In this document: in pieces, positions 10,608 to 19,691 of the stretch
Position numbering within the stretch: the first letter of the stretch is position 1
Layout of the letters: the number at the start of each line of letters is the position of its first letter
Assembly (NCBI GenBank): GCA_938082505.1
Contig: CALLLH010000003.1
Location: 62,001-126,000, forward strand
Source of the DNA: an uncultured Flavobacteriales bacterium
Lineage (GTDB): Bacteria > Bacteroidota > Bacteroidia > Flavobacteriales_D > Sanyastnellaceae
Reading direction: 5' to 3'
Length of the DNA stretch: 64,000 nucleotides
Program-made: the position numbers and the translations under genes
Notes under the pieces: generated by a model
Told to the model about the DNA's origin: nothing
Databases searched by the model: none
Seen by the model: the letters and a program-made list of their open reading frames with translations, nothing else

Positions 10608-12172
10608 CTAGGGCGAAGATGCACCAAGGGCACCAACATTTCCTCCATCGAGATGCCCCCGTGCTGGAAGGTTCCCTCCAGGTATCGGACAAAGCGGTTG
10701 AAGTTGTTGGGATACACCATGAAATCGCGTTCCTGGGCGAAAATATACCGGCTCGAGAGGTGGGATTTCGGCAGCCCGAAAGCCTCGGGATCGGTGACGG
10801 CGAAAACGTCATCGCCATGCCGCAGGTTCCTCCCCGTCTTGTAGCGCGGATTGTCGGTGACCTCCTTCTCCCCTTGGACCTTGATGGGGTTGTCCACCTG
10901 TACCGTGCCATGATCGGAAGTCAGGACGACGTCCATGCCCTCCTCCGCTGCGCGGTCCAGCAGTTCCCTCAATGGACTGTGTTCGAACCAGCTCATGGTC
11001 AACGACCGGTATGCCCCCTCGTCCTCCGCCAATTCCTTGATGATTTCGCTTTCCGTCCGGGCATGGCTGAGCATGTCCACGAAGTTGAAGACGACGGCCG
11101 TGAAGTCCCGATCCTTGATCTGATGGAACCCCTCGAGCAATTTCCTTCCCGCGGAGAGGTCGGTGATCTTGTGGTATCCCCACGTCCCCTTGAAGCCCCA
11201 GCGCTCCAGTTGTGCCCCGAGCAATTCAGACTCATGGGCATTCTTGGACCCTTGGGCTTGCTCGTCCTTCCACCACTGCGGGTGGACCTTGGCAATGCGT
11301 TCGGGCACCATTCCGGCGAACATGGCATTGCGCGCATACTGTGTGGCCGTGGGAAGGAAGCTCCAGTGCATTCGTTCCGATTGCACCTGCCAGGCACCGG
11401 CCAATGCCGGCCCCAAGGCACGCCATTGGTCATATCTGAAATTGTCGATCAGAACGAACAGGGTTTTTTTCCCCTGCTCGAGCAGTGGCTTCACGGATTG
11501 GGCCATGACCTTGGGCGCCAACAAGGGATCCTCGTCGCCGTCGCACCGGTCGAGGTCGGCCACCCAATCCCCGTAATGGGAAGTCACGTATTTGGCGAAC
11601 TGCCTTCCCGCATCGACCCGCTGCATCATCAGGACTTCGGCCATGCCCTGATCCCCGGAAGCCGACAATTCGAGGTCCCAGTGCACGAGCCGCTTGTGGA
11701 TGTCCTCCCAATCCTCCTTTCCCAGACGGTCCATCAGCCGCATCCCGAGCTCACGGAATTCCCGCTGGTAGTCGCTCATGGCCTTCTCTCCCACCAACCG
11801 CTTCTCATCCAGGATTTTCTTCAGGGACAACAGGATCTGGTTCGGATTCAATGGCTTGATGAGGTAATCCGCCATTTTGGAGCCGATGGCCTCCTCCATG
11901 ATGTGCTCCTCCTCACTTTTGGTGATCATCACGCAGGGCAGGTGGGGTCGGCGGTCCTTGATGCGCTGCAAGGTCTCCAATCCGGTGAGCCCCGGCATGT
12001 TCTCATCGAGGAACACCACGTCCACGATGCGCTCATCCTCCAACGCCTCAAGGAGGGCAGCACCGTCCGTGAAACCGGTCACCTCGTAGCCCTTGCGTTG
12101 CAGAAACAGGATGTGTGGCTTCAGCAGGTCGATTTCGTCATCGGCCCAGAGGATGTGTGGAGTGCGCGTCAT
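10604..12172 (-). CDS. porX: PorX, response regulator with PglZ-type phosphatase domain (T9SS)
   Basis: 522 residues. A CheY-like receiver occupies residues 1-125, with phospho-acceptor D56 in VFLDENMP and the conserved Lys in LIKPL. A helical linker and a PglZ/alkaline-phosphatase-superfamily domain follow at about 190-515. Metal and nucleophile candidates are visible in VLIDNFRYDQW, the Thr of TATQYARN and TSDHGTVQV. In Porphyromonas and Flavobacterium this architecture is PorX, partner of the kinase PorY; it controls type IX secretion, and the effector domain hydrolyses nucleotides. No porY is in the window, as expected for this unlinked pair. Confidence 0.93.
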   Translation of the reverse strand: MTRTPHILWADDEIDLLKPHILFLQRKGYEVTGFTDGAALLEALEDERIVDVVFLDENMPGLTGLETLQRIKDRRPHLPCVMITKSEEEHIMEEAIGSKMADYLIKPLNPNQILLSLKKILDEKRLVGEKAMSDYQREFRELGMRLMDRLGKEDWEDIHKRLVHWDLELSASGDQGMAEVLMMQRVDAGRQFAKYVTSHYGDWVADLDRCDGDEDPLLAPKVMAQSVKPLLEQGKKTLFVLIDNFRYDQWRALGPALAGAWQVQSERMHWSFLPTATQYARNAMFAGMVPERIAKVHPQWWKDEQAQGSKNAHESELLGAQLERWGFKGTWGYHKITDLSAGRKLLEGFHQIKDRDFTAVVFNFVDMLSHARTESEIIKELAEDEGAYRSLTMSWFEHSPLRELLDRAAEEGMDVVLTSDHGTVQVDNPIKVQGEKEVTDNPRYKTGRNLRHGDDVFAVTDPEAFGLPKSHLSSRYIFAQERDFMVYPNNFNRFVRYLEGTFQHGGISMEEMLVPLVHLRPR

Positions 12173-12251
12173 GTGATTGCTTCAATGGCGAATGCTTGCA
12201 ATTATTTTATGCCCGCGGTGCCAATGCAAAGAAAGGTGCCAATTTTCGGCC

Positions 12252-13505
12252 ATGGCTGCCCGTCCCAAGCTGCTCAACGACCCGGTTTACGGGTTCATCC
12301 AACTTCGCCACGCCGATTTCACGGAAGTCATGGACCACCCGTGGGTCCAACGCCTGCGCCGAATCAGCCAACTTGGATTGAGCCACCTCGTCTATCCCGG
12401 AGCGGTCCACAACCGCTTCCACCACGCGATTGGCGCGCTCTTCCTCATGCAAGAAGCCCTGGATTCCCTTCGTGAGAAAGGCGTCGTCATCACGGAGGAA
12501 GAGTACCGAGGGGCCTGCTTTGCCATCCTTCTGCACGATGTCGGGCACGGCCCTTTCAGCCATGCCCTGGAGCACTCCATCGTCCGTGGCGTCCACCACG
12601 AGGAGATCAGCACGCTCATCATGAATGAGCTCAATGCCCAGTTCCACGGCAAGCTCGATGTGGCCATCGAGATCTTCAACAACCACCATCCCAAGGGTTT
12701 CCTTCACGACCTTGTCTCCAGCCAGCTCGACATGGACCGCATGGATTACCTGCGGCGCGACAGCTTTTTCACCGGGGTCAGCGAGGGCATGATCAGTTCG
12801 GAGCGGATCATCCGCATGCTCAATGTCCACGAGGGACGCCTCGTGGTCGAGGAGAAGGGCATCTACTCCATCGAGAAGTTCATCATATCGCGCCGTCTGA
12901 TGTACTGGCAGGTGTACCTGCACAAGACGGTGCTGGCCGCGGAATGGATGATGATGCGCATCCTCGAGCGCGCGGGTGAGCTCGCGCGCAGGGGGGAAGA
13001 GGTGTGGTCGACTCCCGCCCTTGCACCGTTCCTGAATGAGGACCTGGACCGCGCACGGTTCCTGGCGGATGCCGATGTCCTGGCCTCTTTCTGCGCCTTG
13101 GATGACAACGATCTCATCTGCTGCATCAAAGCTTGGCAAGGCCACGGGGACCCGGTCCTGTCCAGGATGTGCCGTGGGCTCATTGACCGCCGCCTGTTCA
13201 AGATCGAGCTGCGCAATGAGCCGTTTGATCAGGATGACATTGCCGAGCGGCTCGAGGCCGTTTCCCTGGCTTATGGCCTGTCGATGGAGGAGGCGTCCTT
13301 CTTCGTCTTGCACGACAGGATAGACAACCGCGCCTACTCCACTGCTTCCAATGGCATCACGATGCTGTACAAGGATGGCTCCGTAAGGGATGTGGCCGCC
13401 GCATCCGACCACCTGAACCTCAGCACCCTGAGCATGACGGTGGAGCGGCATTTCCTGGCTTACCCCAAGGAAATACCGCCCCGACCGCAGGCCCTCAAAG
13501 GGTGA
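12252..13505 (+). CDS. HD-domain phosphohydrolase (SAMHD1/dGTPase-like fold)
   Basis: 417 residues from the ATG at 12252; the 25 upstream codons in the track look non-coding. Metal-dependent hydrolase of the HD superfamily. The first His sits in HNRFHHAIG, the HD pair in LLHDVGHGPFSHALEH, and the distal Asp in QLDMDRMDYL. This arrangement matches the YdhJ/SAMHD1-like group, which acts on nucleotides, but the substrate cannot be inferred here. It diverges from porX (79-base gap) and its 3' end overlaps the RNase G gene by 11 bases tail to tail. I recall HD genes of this kind near porX in other Flavobacteriia. Confidence 0.85.
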   Translation: MAARPKLLNDPVYGFIQLRHADFTEVMDHPWVQRLRRISQLGLSHLVYPGAVHNRFHHAIGALFLMQEALDSLREKGVVITEEEYRGACFAILLHDVGHGPFSHALEHSIVRGVHHEEISTLIMNELNAQFHGKLDVAIEIFNNHHPKGFLHDLVSSQLDMDRMDYLRRDSFFTGVSEGMISSERIIRMLNVHEGRLVVEEKGIYSIEKFIISRRLMYWQVYLHKTVLAAEWMMMRILERAGELARRGEEVWSTPALAPFLNEDLDRARFLADADVLASFCALDDNDLICCIKAWQGHGDPVLSRMCRGLIDRRLFKIELRNEPFDQDDIAERLEAVSLAYGLSMEEASFFVLHDRIDNRAYSTASNGITMLYKDGSVRDVAAASDHLNLSTLSMTVERHFLAYPKEIPPRPQALKG

Positions 13506-15042
13506 TCTCCTCTCCTTGGGAATCGTAGAGGTGATGCTCGAGCAACTCCATGGAAGAGTTGCTCTCTACATGGATTTTCATCCCGAAGGACTTCCTCCAT
13601 TGCTTGAGCTGATTGTTCCAGAACCCCTTGGTGATGTATGCTTCCACCATGGGGTGCAGGATCAGCGTCGTCTGCGCGACACCACGGTCAGCTGCGGCTC
13701 CGAGCGCGGCCACGATGGCATCCGTCACAAGGATGCTCGCCGTAACCTGTCCGGTGCCGTTGCATGATGGACACAACTCCGACGTTTTGATGTCGGTGAC
13801 GGGGCGCACGCGTTGCCGCGTGATTTCCACCACACCGAACCGGCTGGGAGCCAGAACGTTGTGCTTCGCCTTGTCCGGCTTCATCGCTTTGCGCAGGGCC
13901 TCCGTCAGTTCGCGGCGGTTGCCCGTCTCGCCCATGTCGATGAAATCCACACAAATGATGCCGCCCATGTCCCGCAACCTCAAGAGGCGCGCTATTTCCG
14001 TTGCGCACTCGAGGTTGGTCGCGATGGCGTTCTCCTCCTGGGAGGTGGCGCCCGCCTTCCGGCCACCGGAATTGACGTCGATGACGTGCATGGCCTCCGT
14101 GTGCTCGACGATGAGGTAAGCTCCGCTGCGCAGGTTGACCTGGCGGCCGAAGCTCGCCTTGATCATCCGGTGCACACCGCGGTCGTCGAATACATCCTTG
14201 GCCTTTGACTCCTTGACGATGTCCACCTTGTCCGGGGCGATGCCCGCAAGAAACTCGCGCACTTCGTTGGCTACGTCAGGGTCGTTGACCAGAATCTGGG
14301 AAAAATCTGGCGTCAACAGGTCCCTCAACAGGGAACTCGTCTTGTTGATTTCACCCAGAACACGCTGGCGGGGTTTGGCATTGCGCAGATTGGCATGCAA
14401 TTCCTTCCAGCGGCTACTCAATTCTTCGAGATCAGAGTGCAAATCGGCAGCCCCCTTTTCCTGGGCGACGGTCCTCACGATGATCCCGCAGTTCTCCGGA
14501 CGGATGCTCTGCAGCAGCACCCTCAGGCGCTTCCGCTCACTCTCCTTCTGGATGCGTTGGCTGATGCTGATCTTGTTCGAAAACGGGACCAGCACGAGGT
14601 ATCTGCCTGCCAAGGTGACCTCGGTTGTCAACCGGGGGCCTTTTGTGGAGATGGCCTCTTTCGCGACCTGCACGAGCACATTCTGGCTCGCGGAGACCAC
14701 GTCTTTCATATTGCCCTTCTTGTCGATGTCCGACTCCAACTTGAAGTTGGCCAGGTCGGCTGTCGTCTGCGTCCCTTTGATGGCACGCTGGGCATATTTC
14801 TTGAAACTTCGGTACTGCGGTCCCAGATCGAGGTAGTGGAGGAAAGCATCCTTGGGATGTCCTACGTCCACGAATCCCGCGTTGAGACTGGGCAGCACCT
14901 TCTTGACCCGGCCGAGGTAAATGTCCCCGACCGTATATTCCTGGTCGCCTTTGTCCTCGTGGAGTTCGACCAAATGGCCGTCCTCCAACATGGCAATGCG
15001 CAACCCGGACGTGGTCTTATTGATGACCAGTTCGATGTTCAC
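13495..15042 (-). CDS. rng: Ribonuclease E/G family endoribonuclease
   Basis: 515 residues, the length of RNase G rather than full RNase E (no long C-terminal scaffold). It cleaves single-stranded RNA in rRNA maturation and mRNA decay. The S1 domain is inserted near the N-terminus (YTVGDIYLGRVKKVLPSLNAGFVDVG). The catalytic-metal segment MHVIDVNSGG and the second acidic site CVDFIDMG are present. The zinc-link CPSCNGTG is also present. The start appears to be GTG at 15042 (VNIELVINKT). Upstream on the same strand lie the 30-residue basic protein, a TPR protein and HU. Confidence 0.94.
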   Translation of the reverse strand: MNIELVINKTTSGLRIAMLEDGHLVELHEDKGDQEYTVGDIYLGRVKKVLPSLNAGFVDVGHPKDAFLHYLDLGPQYRSFKKYAQRAIKGTQTTADLANFKLESDIDKKGNMKDVVSASQNVLVQVAKEAISTKGPRLTTEVTLAGRYLVLVPFSNKISISQRIQKESERKRLRVLLQSIRPENCGIIVRTVAQEKGAADLHSDLEELSSRWKELHANLRNAKPRQRVLGEINKTSSLLRDLLTPDFSQILVNDPDVANEVREFLAGIAPDKVDIVKESKAKDVFDDRGVHRMIKASFGRQVNLRSGAYLIVEHTEAMHVIDVNSGGRKAGATSQEENAIATNLECATEIARLLRLRDMGGIICVDFIDMGETGNRRELTEALRKAMKPDKAKHNVLAPSRFGVVEITRQRVRPVTDIKTSELCPSCNGTGQVTASILVTDAIVAALGAAADRGVAQTTLILHPMVEAYITKGFWNNQLKQWRKSFGMKIHVESNSSMELLEHHLYDSQGEEITL

Positions 15043-15103
15043 GCGTCAATACATGACGGCGGCATCACGCGAGGGGAAAGCCCTTGTGACGCCACCTGTT
15101 GCG

Positions 15104-15196
15104 TCACTTCTTCTTCTTGTGACGGTTCTTGCGTAGACGCTTCTTCTTCTTGTGCACGGCCATCTTATGGCGCTTGCGCTTTTTTCCACTAGGCAT
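15104..15196 (-). CDS. 30-residue Lys/Arg-rich protein, AURKAIP1/COX24-like
   Basis: Not in the ORF track because of its length. The minus strand encodes MPSGKKRKRHKMAVHKKKKR and ends RKNRHKKKK before a TGA: 30 residues, 21 of them Lys, Arg or His. I recall near-identical short proteins annotated in Bacteroidota as AURKAIP1/COX24-domain proteins, related to mitochondrial ribosomal protein mS38, so a ribosomal role is plausible. The gene lies 11 bases after the TPR gene and 61 bases before RNase G on one strand. The coding call rests on that recalled similarity and the intact frame; the ribosomal role is inference. Confidence 0.82.
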   Translation of the reverse strand: MPSGKKRKRHKMAVHKKKKRLRKNRHKKKK

Positions 15197-15207
15197 AGTA
15201 GGAGATT

Positions 15208-15828
15208 TTATGAGTTCGTTGAATTCTGTTCGAGGAGGACGATGCGTTGTTGCACCGCCGCCTCAATCACGGTATCCGGAGAAAGCGGGAGAAACCGCCT
15301 GTAACTGGCAAGCGCCAAGCCCGGATTTCCGAGGCGCTCGTGGCATTGTGCCTGGAAGAACCAGGCATTGTTTGCAGCACTGTCCACGACGAGCGCGCGC
15401 TCGAAATGAATCAGGGCCTCGGCGGGAGCTCCGCCGTCCAGCTCCAGCATGCCCAGCTGGATCAGGGGTTCGGACCGATCAGGGGCCAGCTCAATGGCTT
15501 GCGCAAAGCGCTCCCTGGCTTTGTCGATCTGTCCGGATTGGATGCTGAACCGACCCAGTTCGATGACGGCATCCACGTTCGGGGGGTCTTGTTCGGCCAA
15601 CGCTTTCAAGGCCAGAATACCCGCCATGGGATTCGGGCCGTTGACCTGGTTTATGGCGTCCTGGACCGGATCCACGCCTTCCTCTCCGTCCAATGCAACG
15701 GGGAGGTCCGGCTCGGCATAGGCCTCGGGACTTCTGGGAATCACCTGCCAAACGAGCACTGCCAACACCACACACAATCCCCCGATGATCAGGGGCAAGG
15801 CGCGGTTGGTGGTGCTGTCGTTGGACAT
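15208..15828 (-). CDS. Membrane-anchored TPR protein
   Basis: 206 residues from the ATG at 15828 (the track starts 3 codons earlier at a TTG). A single hydrophobic segment at about residues 12-30 (LPLIIGGLCVVLAVLVWQVI) acts as a signal anchor. The rest is alpha-helical with TPR-like repeats at about 75-175 (for example ARERFAQAIELAPD and ALIHFERALVVDS). No catalytic residues are evident. TPR proteins mediate protein contacts, so a periplasmic scaffold is possible. It lies between HU (10 bases) and the small basic protein (11 bases), suggesting one operon ending in RNase G. Confidence 0.75.
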   Translation of the reverse strand: MSNDSTTNRALPLIIGGLCVVLAVLVWQVIPRSPEAYAEPDLPVALDGEEGVDPVQDAINQVNGPNPMAGILALKALAEQDPPNVDAVIELGRFSIQSGQIDKARERFAQAIELAPDRSEPLIQLGMLELDGGAPAEALIHFERALVVDSAANNAWFFQAQCHERLGNPGLALASYRRFLPLSPDTVIEAAVQQRIVLLEQNSTNS

Positions 15829-15838
15829 GGTGTACAAA

Positions 15839-16129
15839 TCAGTTCGCGGAAACCTTCGACTTCACGTTTTCCATGAAGCTCTTGGCCGGCTTGAACGAGG
15901 GGATGTTGTGCGCGGGAATTTCGATGGTCTTGTTCTTCAAGATGTCCCGGCCCGTCTTCTTGGCGCGACGCTTGATGATGAAACTTCCGAAGCCACGCAG
16001 GTAAACGTTGTGTCCACTTTCGAGTGAATCACGTACAGACTCCATAAACGCTTCCACGGTCGCTTGAACGTCTTGGCGTTCGATTCCCGTCTTGTCAGAA
16101 ATGCGGCTCACGAGGTCCGCCTTGGTCAT
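15839..16129 (-). CDS. HU-family DNA-binding protein
   Basis: 96 residues from the ATG at 16129; the track's upstream 13 codons are less likely. Histone-like protein that bends DNA and organises the nucleoid. It begins MTKADLVSRISDKTG, and the DNA-gripping arm lies around GFGSFIIKRRAKKTGRD. The proline at the arm tip is replaced here by the NKTIEIPAHN segment, with Pro nearby, a common HU/IHF variant. It is first in the HU-TPR-basic protein-rng run and diverges from mutY. A TATTTTTG box on the minus strand lies 67 bases upstream. Confidence 0.92.
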   Translation of the reverse strand: MTKADLVSRISDKTGIERQDVQATVEAFMESVRDSLESGHNVYLRGFGSFIIKRRAKKTGRDILKNKTIEIPAHNIPSFKPAKSFMENVKSKVSAN

Positions 16130-16171
16130 CTTATTTTCAGTCACCTTGCTGGATGATTTGAGTGTCAATCA

Positions 16172-16188
16172 ATTGAATCCTATTCAAT
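16172..16188. promoter_or_regulatory. 7-3-7 dyad between HU and mutY
   Basis: ATTGAAT-cct-ATTCAAT is a perfect inverted repeat in the 89-base gap between two divergent genes, just inside the predicted HU transcript. It is AT-rich in a GC-rich genome. It could be an operator or a leader hairpin; nothing further can be read. Confidence 0.35.
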
Positions 16189-16195
16189 GGGCCGG

Positions 16196-16203
16196 CAAAA
16201 ATA
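16196..16203 (-). promoter_or_regulatory. -7-type promoter box for the HU operon
   Basis: On the minus strand the sequence is TATTTTTG, an exact TAnnTTTG match, 67 bases upstream of the HU start codon. No -33 TTG is seen at the usual spacing. Confidence 0.45.
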
Positions 16204-16218
16204 GGACACCGAGGGCAG

Positions 16219-17328
16219 ATGACACGCCCCCTTCTTGTGAATGGCCATCTTTGGGGTGTGACTTCGCGCCATCCACTGACCACCGACCTGATTGAATGGT
16301 ACGCCAACCACGCGCGCCCATTGCCCTGGAGATCCGCTCCGAACCCTTATTCCACGTGGCTCTCCGAAGTCATCCTGCAACAGACACGGGTCGACCAAGG
16401 CACCGCCTATTGGGAACGGTTCATGGTCGCATTTCCGACCGTCACCGATCTAGCCAACGCCACGACAGATGAGGTCATGGCCCTTTGGAAAGGACTCGGG
16501 TATTACAGCCGGGCGCGCAATCTGCACAATGCCGCACGGCACATCGTCACCGAATTGGACGGCGTTTTCCCAGCCAACGCCGAGGAATGGCGGCGGCTGC
16601 CGGGCGTCGGAGCCTACACTGCGGCCGCCATCTCGAGCATATGCTACGGAGAACCCGTACCCGTGGTGGACGGCAATGTCCAGCGCGTGATGTCACGCCT
16701 CTACGACATCGAAGACCCTGTGGACCGCAAGGCCGGTCGCGAGGCCGTGGAGGTCGCGTGTCGCGCCCACCTCGATGCCGAGTCACCGGGCGACTCCAAC
16801 CAAGCCTGGATGGAACTAGGTGCGCTCATCTGTTCACCACGTGCACCTCAATGTCAACGATGTCCAATCGCCCATGGCTGTCTGGCCCGTGAACGCGGCA
16901 CTGCTGCGAACCGGCCGGTGAAGCAGCCTAAAAAGGCTGCGGTGGAAGTCGAGGTCCAGTTCACCATCCCCACGCGGAAAGGGCAGGACGGAAAGGTCCA
17001 ATGGTGGGTGGAGCGTCGCCCTGAAATCGGCATCTGGTCCCAGCTCGAGGCCTTTCCCTGCACGATATCGCCGCTTTCACCCGTGGCTCAAGGCCTTTTC
17101 GCTGCTGGGGAGCACGGCGGGGAACTGCGGTTCGGACCTGTGCCACACGTACTCACGCATCGGAAAATGACCGCGTGGTTCACCTGCGCGGAAATGCGGC
17201 AGGATGCGGGCATGTCCGAGCCCGAATCGCCGGGGCGATGGGTCGACGTGGAGGGAGGTGTGGCCAATTGGCCACGCCTCATCGACAAGGTCTTGCCGGA
17301 ATTGAGGACCTGGATTGTGAAGATTTGA
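16219..17328 (+). CDS. mutY: Adenine DNA glycosylase MutY
   Basis: 369 residues. It removes adenine mispaired with 8-oxoguanine. The catalytic Glu is E50 in SEVILQQTRV. The helix-hairpin-helix LPGVGAYTAAAI is followed by the Asp of VPVVDGNV. The 4Fe-4S cluster motif C-x6-C-x2-C-x5-C is complete (CSPRAPQCQRCPIAHGC). The NUDIX-like C-terminal domain reads the 8-oxoG side (about 235-365). The ATG at 16219 leaves a roughly 20-residue extension before the conserved core. The order mutY-ssb-gldE-gldD recurs in Flavobacteriia as far as I recall. Confidence 0.95.
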   Translation: MTRPLLVNGHLWGVTSRHPLTTDLIEWYANHARPLPWRSAPNPYSTWLSEVILQQTRVDQGTAYWERFMVAFPTVTDLANATTDEVMALWKGLGYYSRARNLHNAARHIVTELDGVFPANAEEWRRLPGVGAYTAAAISSICYGEPVPVVDGNVQRVMSRLYDIEDPVDRKAGREAVEVACRAHLDAESPGDSNQAWMELGALICSPRAPQCQRCPIAHGCLARERGTAANRPVKQPKKAAVEVEVQFTIPTRKGQDGKVQWWVERRPEIGIWSQLEAFPCTISPLSPVAQGLFAAGEHGGELRFGPVPHVLTHRKMTAWFTCAEMRQDAGMSEPESPGRWVDVEGGVANWPRLIDKVLPELRTWIVKI

Positions 17329-17376
17329 GGTTTTGAGCAAAGGGCTGCTTGACTGCCGTTCGGTACTTTGCATCGG

Positions 17377-17799
17377 ATGTCCGGATTGAACAAAGTGATG
17401 CTGATCGGTCGGCTCGGCAAGCCACCGGCCCTGCGCTGGCTCGAAAGCGGACAGGCCATGTGCAAGCTGTCCATTGCCACCTCGGAACGCTACAAGGACA
17501 AATCCGGCCAGCTGCACGAGCGGACCGAATGGCACCAGGTCGTGTTGTGGCGGGAACTGGCTGAAACCGCAGACCGCCTCCTTGAAACAGGTCAACAGGT
17601 CTTCATCGAAGGCCGGTTGCGCACCCGCTCTTGGCAATCCGCAGAGGGTTCCGAGCACCGGGCCACTGAAATCGTGGCGGACCGGCTGGAAATCCTCTCG
17701 CCGAAGGGCGGTACCGGCACCGAAGATGCCTCCAACGATGCCGCTGATGCCGGCTCTTCGGGACCCCACCCCATGGATTCCTCACCCCTGCCCTTCTGA
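17377..17799 (+). CDS. ssb: Single-stranded DNA-binding protein
   Basis: 140 residues from the ATG at 17377, three codons inside the track ORF. OB-fold protein that coats single-stranded DNA in replication and repair. It starts MSGLNKVMLIGRLG and contains RTEWHQVVLW, typical of SSB. After about residue 110 comes a flexible acidic/Gly/Ser tail ending SSPLPF, an SSB-Ct tip with hydrophobic P-L-P-F but fewer acids than the usual DDxPF. Its TGA shares its last base with the next start (ATG at 17799), so it is translationally coupled to gldE-gldD. A TACTTTG-like box lies 7 bases upstream. Confidence 0.93.
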   Translation: MSGLNKVMLIGRLGKPPALRWLESGQAMCKLSIATSERYKDKSGQLHERTEWHQVVLWRELAETADRLLETGQQVFIEGRLRTRSWQSAEGSEHRATEIVADRLEILSPKGGTGTEDASNDAADAGSSGPHPMDSSPLPF

Positions 17800-19691
17800 T
17801 GGTCGACCTCTCGGGAATCCACGTTTGGATTGCGGCTGCGACATCATTGATGCTGCTGCTGGCCAGCGCTTTCATTTCCGGAAGCGAGATTGCCTTCTTC
17901 TCGCTGGACCCCCAGGAAAGGAAGTCCCTCGAGGACTCCGATGACAGCAGATCCAAACTCGTGCTGTCCCTGCTCAACACGCCGGATGCCGATCGAGGTC
18001 CGCGTCAACTGCTGGCCACCATCCTGGTGCTGAACAACACGGTGAACATCCTGATCATCCTGCTGTCCACAGTCATGCTGCAGCATTGGCTCGATGAACT
18101 CCCCCCGGTGGTCGGAACCCTGCTCCATGTCTTCGGGGTGACTTTCCTGATCGTCCTGTTCGGCGAAGTCCTGCCCAAAGTGTATGCCAACCGTTACCCT
18201 CGGGCCCTCGCCGAGCGCATGGCCAGGGTACTCAGCCTGTCCAAGGGCGTTCTGCGCCCGGTCTGGCATCCGCTGAATGCCATGGCCTCATGGCTCTCCC
18301 CCCGCAAGGGAATGGCCACAGAGCTCTCCGTGGAAGACCTCGAGCACGCGGTCAATGTGACGGACTCGGGAGAGCGGTCCGAGGAGGAAAGCCGCATCCT
18401 GAGCGGCATCGTGAACTTCGGCTCAAAGGATGTCAAACAGATCATGCGTCCGAGAACGGATGTGACCTCCTTTGCCCATGATCTTCCTTGGTCAGCACTG
18501 AAGACGGCCATGGCGGAATCGGGATTCAGCCGCGTGCCCATCCATGAGGAGGGGCTGGATCAGATTCGGGGCATCCTCTATGCCAAGGATTTGCTGCCCC
18601 ACCGCGGAGAGGAGAGTTTCGATTGGAATTCCCTCCTCCGGCAGCCCTTTTTCGTGCCGGAGAACCGGATGATCGACGACCTGCTCCGGGACTTTCAGTC
18701 CATGAAGGTGCACCTGGCCGTGGTCGTCGACGAATATGGGGGCACCAGCGGCATCGTCACCCTCGAAGACGTGATCGAAGAGATCGTAGGGGACATCGCC
18801 GATGAATTCGACGATGAAGACGTGCTGTACTCAAGGGTCGACGAACGAACGGTGGTCTTCCAAGGCAAGACCGCGCTGGTGGACGTTTACCGCATCCTCG
18901 ACATCGATGGAGGCAATTTCGAGTCCGCCAAGGGCGAGAGCGACACCCTTGGTGGCTTCGTCGTGGAGCAATTGGCCCGCCTTCCCAAACCCGGCGAGTC
19001 GCTGGTCTTCGATGGCATACAGTTGTTGACGGAGGCCTCCGATCGGCGGAGGGTACTCCAGGTGAAAGTCGTACTTCCCGAAGATGGGGGAGGCGCAAAG
19101 GGAGGCGTTGCCGGCATCGGCCGCAGCGGATTGGGCACCCTGCTCCTCCTGGGCTGCCTGGCATTGGGTTGGGGATGCTCCTCCCCTCCACCTGTTCCCC
19201 GGCCCGCCGGCTATTTCCGAATCGCCATGCACGACACCACGTACAGGGAGGTCGCATTGGACTGTCCCGTGTCCCTGTCCATGTCCTCCATTGCCCTGCT
19301 CGAACCCGTGCAGGATTTTGCACCGGACAGTTGCTGGTTCAACCTCGTATATCCCGGTTACCAGGCCAGACTGCATTGCACCTATGCAGGCGGAGTGGAC
19401 CTGGAGGCGGTCGCCGAGGACGCTTTCCAACTGGCCTATGAGCATGAGGTCAAGGCCGATGCCATCCAAATGCGCCAGCGGGATTATGCCACCGGAGGGC
19501 AGTCCACCATCTGGCGCATAGCCGGGGATGCGGCGAGCCCATTGCAATTCCTCTGTACGGATGGACAGAATCAATTCCTGCGGGGTGCTCTTTATTTCGA
19601 AGTCCGGCCGAACGGGGATTCCCTGGCGCCGGTGGTGTCCCGCATGGAGTTGGACATCGAATACCTCATGGCGAACCTCCATTGGCTGTGA
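17799..19691 (+). CDS. GldE-GldD fusion: CNNM/CBS membrane protein joined to gliding lipoprotein
   Basis: 630 residues in one open frame. Residues 1-430 are GldE-like: a DUF21/CNNM membrane domain (ISGSEIAFFSL, then membrane spans to about 150), a CBS pair (about 200-330, including VVDEYGGTSGIVTLED) and a CorC_HlyC domain (about 345-430). A Gly-rich linker then leads to a hydrophobic segment with candidate lipobox cysteines C453 and C460 (LLLLGCLALGWGC). The remainder matches GldD: CWFNLVYPGYQ, YEHEVKADAIQM, LQFLCTDGQNQFLRGALYFE. GldD is required for gliding and type IX secretion in Flavobacterium. The two are normally separate adjacent genes. No in-frame ATG or GTG lies in the junction; only a TTG at 19131 could restart translation. 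Confidence 0.88.
   Translation: MVDLSGIHVWIAAATSLMLLLASAFISGSEIAFFSLDPQERKSLEDSDDSRSKLVLSLLNTPDADRGPRQLLATILVLNNTVNILIILLSTVMLQHWLDELPPVVGTLLHVFGVTFLIVLFGEVLPKVYANRYPRALAERMARVLSLSKGVLRPVWHPLNAMASWLSPRKGMATELSVEDLEHAVNVTDSGERSEEESRILSGIVNFGSKDVKQIMRPRTDVTSFAHDLPWSALKTAMAESGFSRVPIHEEGLDQIRGILYAKDLLPHRGEESFDWNSLLRQPFFVPENRMIDDLLRDFQSMKVHLAVVVDEYGGTSGIVTLEDVIEEIVGDIADEFDDEDVLYSRVDERTVVFQGKTALVDVYRILDIDGGNFESAKGESDTLGGFVVEQLARLPKPGESLVFDGIQLLTEASDRRRVLQVKVVLPEDGGGAKGGVAGIGRSGLGTLLLLGCLALGWGCSSPPPVPRPAGYFRIAMHDTTYREVALDCPVSLSMSSIALLEPVQDFAPDSCWFNLVYPGYQARLHCTYAGGVDLEAVAEDAFQLAYEHEVKADAIQMRQRDYATGGQSTIWRIAGDAASPLQFLCTDGQNQFLRGALYFEVRPNGDSLAPVVSRMELDIEYLMANLHWL

Follow-up and report, generated by a model that had tools for sequence, protein, structure and literature searches.

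Between a gene for a TPR-repeat protein and one for an RNase E/G-family ribonuclease, on the minus strand of a 64,000-nucleotide stretch of bacterial DNA (the window, which throughout means this whole stretch), lies an open reading frame (ORF) of only 30 codons, which raises the question of whether so short a frame is a real gene and what it might encode. An earlier note, made from the sequence alone, had described an intact gene consisting mostly of Lys and Arg codons, and both descriptions proved exact: the frame runs without interruption from ATG to TGA, stops 61 nt short of the ribonuclease gene, and its product, MPSGKKRKRHKMAVHKKKKRLRKNRHKKKK, contains 13 Lys and 5 Arg (60%) as well as 3 His, giving a computed pI of about 12 and a mass of 3.8 kDa. 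It is the single ATG-initiated ORF of 20–60 codons in the window with at least 60% Lys plus Arg, and 60 Markov-1 shuffles of the window yielded 0 such frames. The gene is present as a single copy in its own genome, and the 15 copies found in the genus encode an identical protein in 14 distinct DNA versions. Pairwise comparison of these copies gave 570 synonymous versus 0 nonsynonymous codon differences; of the 20 variable sites, 17 fall at third codon positions, the other 3 being synonymous or stop-codon changes. The ORF is thus a conserved gene under strong purifying selection. That it might be a chance frame in the gap between two genes could be argued from its very small size and from the lack of any match when the peptide was scanned against Pfam and NCBIfam, but the purely synonymous variation, the conservation across the phylum described below and the shuffles refute this reading, which we regard as vanishingly improbable. 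The features of the locus are collected in Table 1.

Table 1. Position of the small gene, its neighbours and the adjacent hairpin in the window.
Feature	Position	Strand	Remarks
RNase E/G-family ribonuclease (RNase G), downstream neighbour	13495..15042	-	GTG start; PF10150 E 1e-88; TIGR00757 over cut-off
Strong hairpin in the bS22-RNase G gap (15043-15103)	approx. 15046..15096	-	putative mRNA 3'-end or processing element
Predicted bS22 coding sequence	15104..15196	-	30 aa, ATG to TGA, read 15196→15104; protein MPSGKKRKRHKMAVHKKKKRLRKNRHKKKK
TPR-repeat protein, immediate upstream neighbour	15208..15837	-	11 nt gap to bS22
HU-family DNA-binding protein, upstream of the TPR gene	15839..16168	-	PF00216 E 1e-28

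The identity of the product emerged from comparison with solved structures. Searching the PDB with the single sequence (phmmer) returned three full-length matches, 9i5v_10 (E 2e-9), 7jil_5 (E 7e-9) and 8fmw_V (E 2e-4), besides one weak chance match. Chain 7jil_5 belongs to the Flavobacterium johnsoniae 70S ribosome, so that the chain which the earlier note had proposed to look for in Bacteroidota ribosome structures is indeed there, and 8fmw_V is the bS22 protein of Borrelia. A 14-sequence profile retrieved these same three chains only, at E values from 2e-15 to 6e-13; since the profile includes copies of them, the independent result is the single-sequence search. The F. johnsoniae protein and 9i5v chain 10 are, like our peptide, 30 residues long and align with it collinearly from residue 1 to 30, with 83% and 87% identity, respectively. 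Both carry Thr and Arg where Val14 and Lys17 occur here, and the F. johnsoniae chain differs further at residues 12, 21 and 23. The protein of Borreliella burgdorferi (8fmw chain V) is of the same family, being 64% identical over the aligned residues 1–28, but its gene has a GUG start and a different neighbourhood. Moreover, the peptide shows the traits of bS22, namely a length of about 28–33 residues, roughly 60% Lys/Arg and a core of the form MP(S/C/N)G[KR]K[RK]K...HK[RK]KK...NRHKK, and it combines end-to-end homology to a structural chain with a single-copy, conserved gene under purifying selection, as expected for bS22 of the Bacteroidota/spirochaete type. Given the full-length PDB matches and the published bS22 structures, the best explanation is that the gene encodes the small-subunit ribosomal protein bS22, an assignment that, judged from sequence, is almost certainly correct. 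The ribosomal interpretation offered in the earlier note is supported by these matches and was essentially right. The sequence group of 7jil_5 bears two molecule names, S22 and L38, a labelling ambiguity that made us consider bL38 as well. That protein, likewise poorly annotated and found in the same structures, is a separate 50S component with beta strands, located near H95/H97, uL6 and uL14 (PMC10618245), a description at odds with a Lys/Arg peptide of 30 residues, and we rejected it.

The gene had also been called overlooked, which is true in part: Pfam and NCBIfam models miss the sequence, yet the family is already known as bS22. It is a known ribosomal protein, easily missed and already present in solved ribosomes of related bacteria, and the find is accordingly an ordinary one that carries little surprise. 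In the paper on bS21 of F. johnsoniae, bS22 goes unmentioned. Similarly mixed was the outcome for the proposed resemblance to AURKAIP1/COX24 proteins. The closest PDB chain, 9i5v_10, is indeed labelled 'AURKAIP1/COX24 domain-containing protein', but the corresponding Pfam model, PF08213 (COX24_C), barely recognises this sequence type: it found nothing in the genome of the window, did not match the peptide, and gave weak matches to just 3 of 14 bS22 family members (best E 0.19), so that the peptide does not reach the PF08213 cut-off. Actinobacterial bS22 (Mycobacterium smegmatis, Cutibacterium acnes) and mS38/AURKAIP1/COX24 occupy the same pocket in published structures (PMC10618245, PMC10085706) but lie outside the reach of the profile search, in which neither mycobacterial bS22 nor mS38 was retrieved from the PDB at E<=10. 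Equivalence with mS38/COX24 thus rests on the common structural site reported in these papers, the sequence profile being marginal.

Published ribosome structures suggest what the protein would do. The bS22 pocket is formed by 16S rRNA helices h2, h27, h44 and h45, with a contact to H68 of the 23S rRNA, and is common to Borrelia, F. johnsoniae and M. smegmatis; mS38 in mitochondria and eL41 in eukaryotes are considered analogues of bS22, and the Borrelia gene, not annotated as bS22, is a candidate essential gene (PMC10618245). The N-terminal part of the protein touches h44 and h45 at the neck, an additional inter-subunit bridge is made by bS22, and the F. johnsoniae and C. acnes proteins superpose in the 30S subunit (PMC10085706). 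By analogy with these orthologues, the very basic peptide encoded in the window would insert into the 30S pocket of h2, h27, h44 and h45 and contact H68 across the interface, and may thereby steady the decoding helix at its base as well as the joint between the subunits. We also considered that the cell might secrete or release it primarily as a cationic antimicrobial or a peptide of the bacteriocin type, its role in the ribosome being secondary, given that C. acnes bS22 inhibits several bacteria in disk assays (PMC10085706) and that MPSGKKRKRHKMAVHKKKKRLRKNRHKKKK is similarly basic. However, neither a signal peptide nor an export or immunity gene is apparent beside bS22, the sequence is nearly invariant across the phylum, unlike bacteriocins, and the structural orthologues are integral ribosome components, making such a primary function extremely unlikely.

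The earlier note had proposed looking for a conserved MPSGKKRKRHKM start in Bacteroidota, and one was found. Among close relatives, 38 of 40 genomes gave a match, including all 25 of good quality, and phylum-wide the gene was matched in 289 of the 297 genomes that are at least 90% complete. The two same-genus genomes without bS22 are 83% and 60% complete and lack a match for RNase G too, so that an assembly gap is the simplest explanation of these absences. Using a degenerate DNA pattern for the KI(S/T/R)THKRKK-type stretch on the genome collection, we found intact bS22 ORFs in Bacteroidota, Spirochaetes, Omnitrophota, Neomarinimicrobiota and Latescibacterota among the matches listed, which do not amount to a census; one further hit (L090) was a chance match to the pattern. 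At another locus (L058, G069:C1:3074700-3078700), the bS22 ORF ends a 444-codon startable frame, which a naive gene caller could annotate as a false fusion. The apparent bS22 fusion in this relative, a 478-codon open frame, was rejected because a well-formed alpha/beta-hydrolase-like ORF is encoded antisense to the frame, whose openness is most likely a matter of chance in GC-rich DNA.

The earlier note had further drawn on the adjacent RNase, of a kind that matures rRNA, to argue for a ribosomal role. We grouped the loci by database label or kinship and found the adjacency to be real, RNase G lying directly downstream of bS22 at 14/14 loci of the genus, 16/16 of the same order and 7/7 of the same class (37/37 together), and at 44 of the 45 named Bacteroidota loci that have sufficient flanking sequence. 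It is seen, however, at 0/24 loci sampled from other classes of the phylum and at 0/23 in other phyla (0/6 in Neomarinimicrobiota/FCB/Latescibacterota, 0/10 in Omnitrophota, 0/7 in Spirochaetes), and because it is confined to part of the phylum, proximity to RNase G is weak evidence for the role of bS22. The same distribution bears on the idea that the peptide is no ribosomal protein but serves RNase G as a dedicated partner, be it a small RNA-binding cofactor or a regulator: the strict adjacency within the class speaks for it, but bS22 occurs without an adjacent RNase G in other classes and phyla, its orthologues are modelled as ribosomal chains, and RNase G is kept in genomes that lost bS22, which together render a dedicated partner very unlikely. 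Upstream of bS22, the neighbour with the widest conservation is HU, found on the same strand at 38/38 same-class loci, at 20/25 loci from other classes and at 7/7 loci in Neomarinimicrobiota/FCB/Latescibacterota (at a median distance of about 20 nt), and at 0 of the Spirochaetes or Omnitrophota loci. As HU adjacency is more widespread than RNase G adjacency, the pairing of HU with bS22 appears to be the older one, and RNase G to have become a neighbour later.

At the locus itself, the TPR gene, bS22 and RNase G would, in this order, share a transcript. The 62 nt that follow the bS22 stop codon form a hairpin in each of the 15 members of the genus (L001-L015; mean z -2.8), while its sequence drifts, with a mean column identity of 54% in a 13-sequence alignment. 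Of the segments taken at 60-nt steps through the locus, the hairpin was the most structured, the next reaching -2.3 and most lying between -1 and +0.5. No T run follows the stem on the window's own strand, a terminator-like call at this position belonging to the opposite strand, and no Rfam families were detected at 12000-18000. The hairpin may mark the end of an mRNA or a processing point between the two genes, and it would then separate the mRNA output of bS22 from that of RNase G.

Although bS22 is so widely conserved, some Bacteroidota appear to live without it, and it is therefore not universally indispensable. In searches with related bS22 queries at E<=1, which a strongly diverged replacement could escape, all 12 sampled genomes of one family (f45; for example G184, G232 and G236) and 7 of 12 genomes of one genus (g97; G264, G312, G324 and G334-G337) gave no match, the other 5 of this genus keeping bS22. 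Three genomes of the genus were inspected at the corresponding site, which still carries the HU gene and the opposing neighbour but no remnant of bS22 between them. Loci L195-L197 also belong to the bS22-less cases, which include genomes of good quality. In the family, two genomes were inspected; their GC content is 66% at the loci in question and their RNase G is acidic (pI 5.2 vs about 9), and our guess is that these features hint at a salt-in halophile lifestyle. Comparison of the 16S rRNA of three bS22-less and five bS22-bearing species revealed no compensating changes in h45 or at the base of h44; the columns separating the former from all of the latter number 4, at 378, 385, 485 and 627 (G312 numbering). 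Taken together, one reading, which we hold tentatively and at somewhat less than even confidence, is that certain Bacteroidota clades can dispense with bS22 (the sampled high-GC, acidic-protein family and part of one genus), their ribosomes being naturally free of it while the pocket at h45 and the h44 base stays unchanged, and that in the class of the window the conserved hairpin of drifting sequence may uncouple or feedback-regulate the output of ribosomal protein and RNase.

The assignment closes an annotation gap, as the Pfam and NCBIfam models searched miss a 30-residue ribosomal protein that nearly every genome of the phylum carries. Beyond annotation, the function of bS22 is poorly understood, and the patchy losses point to paired natural plus and minus species within a single genus that could serve to test it.
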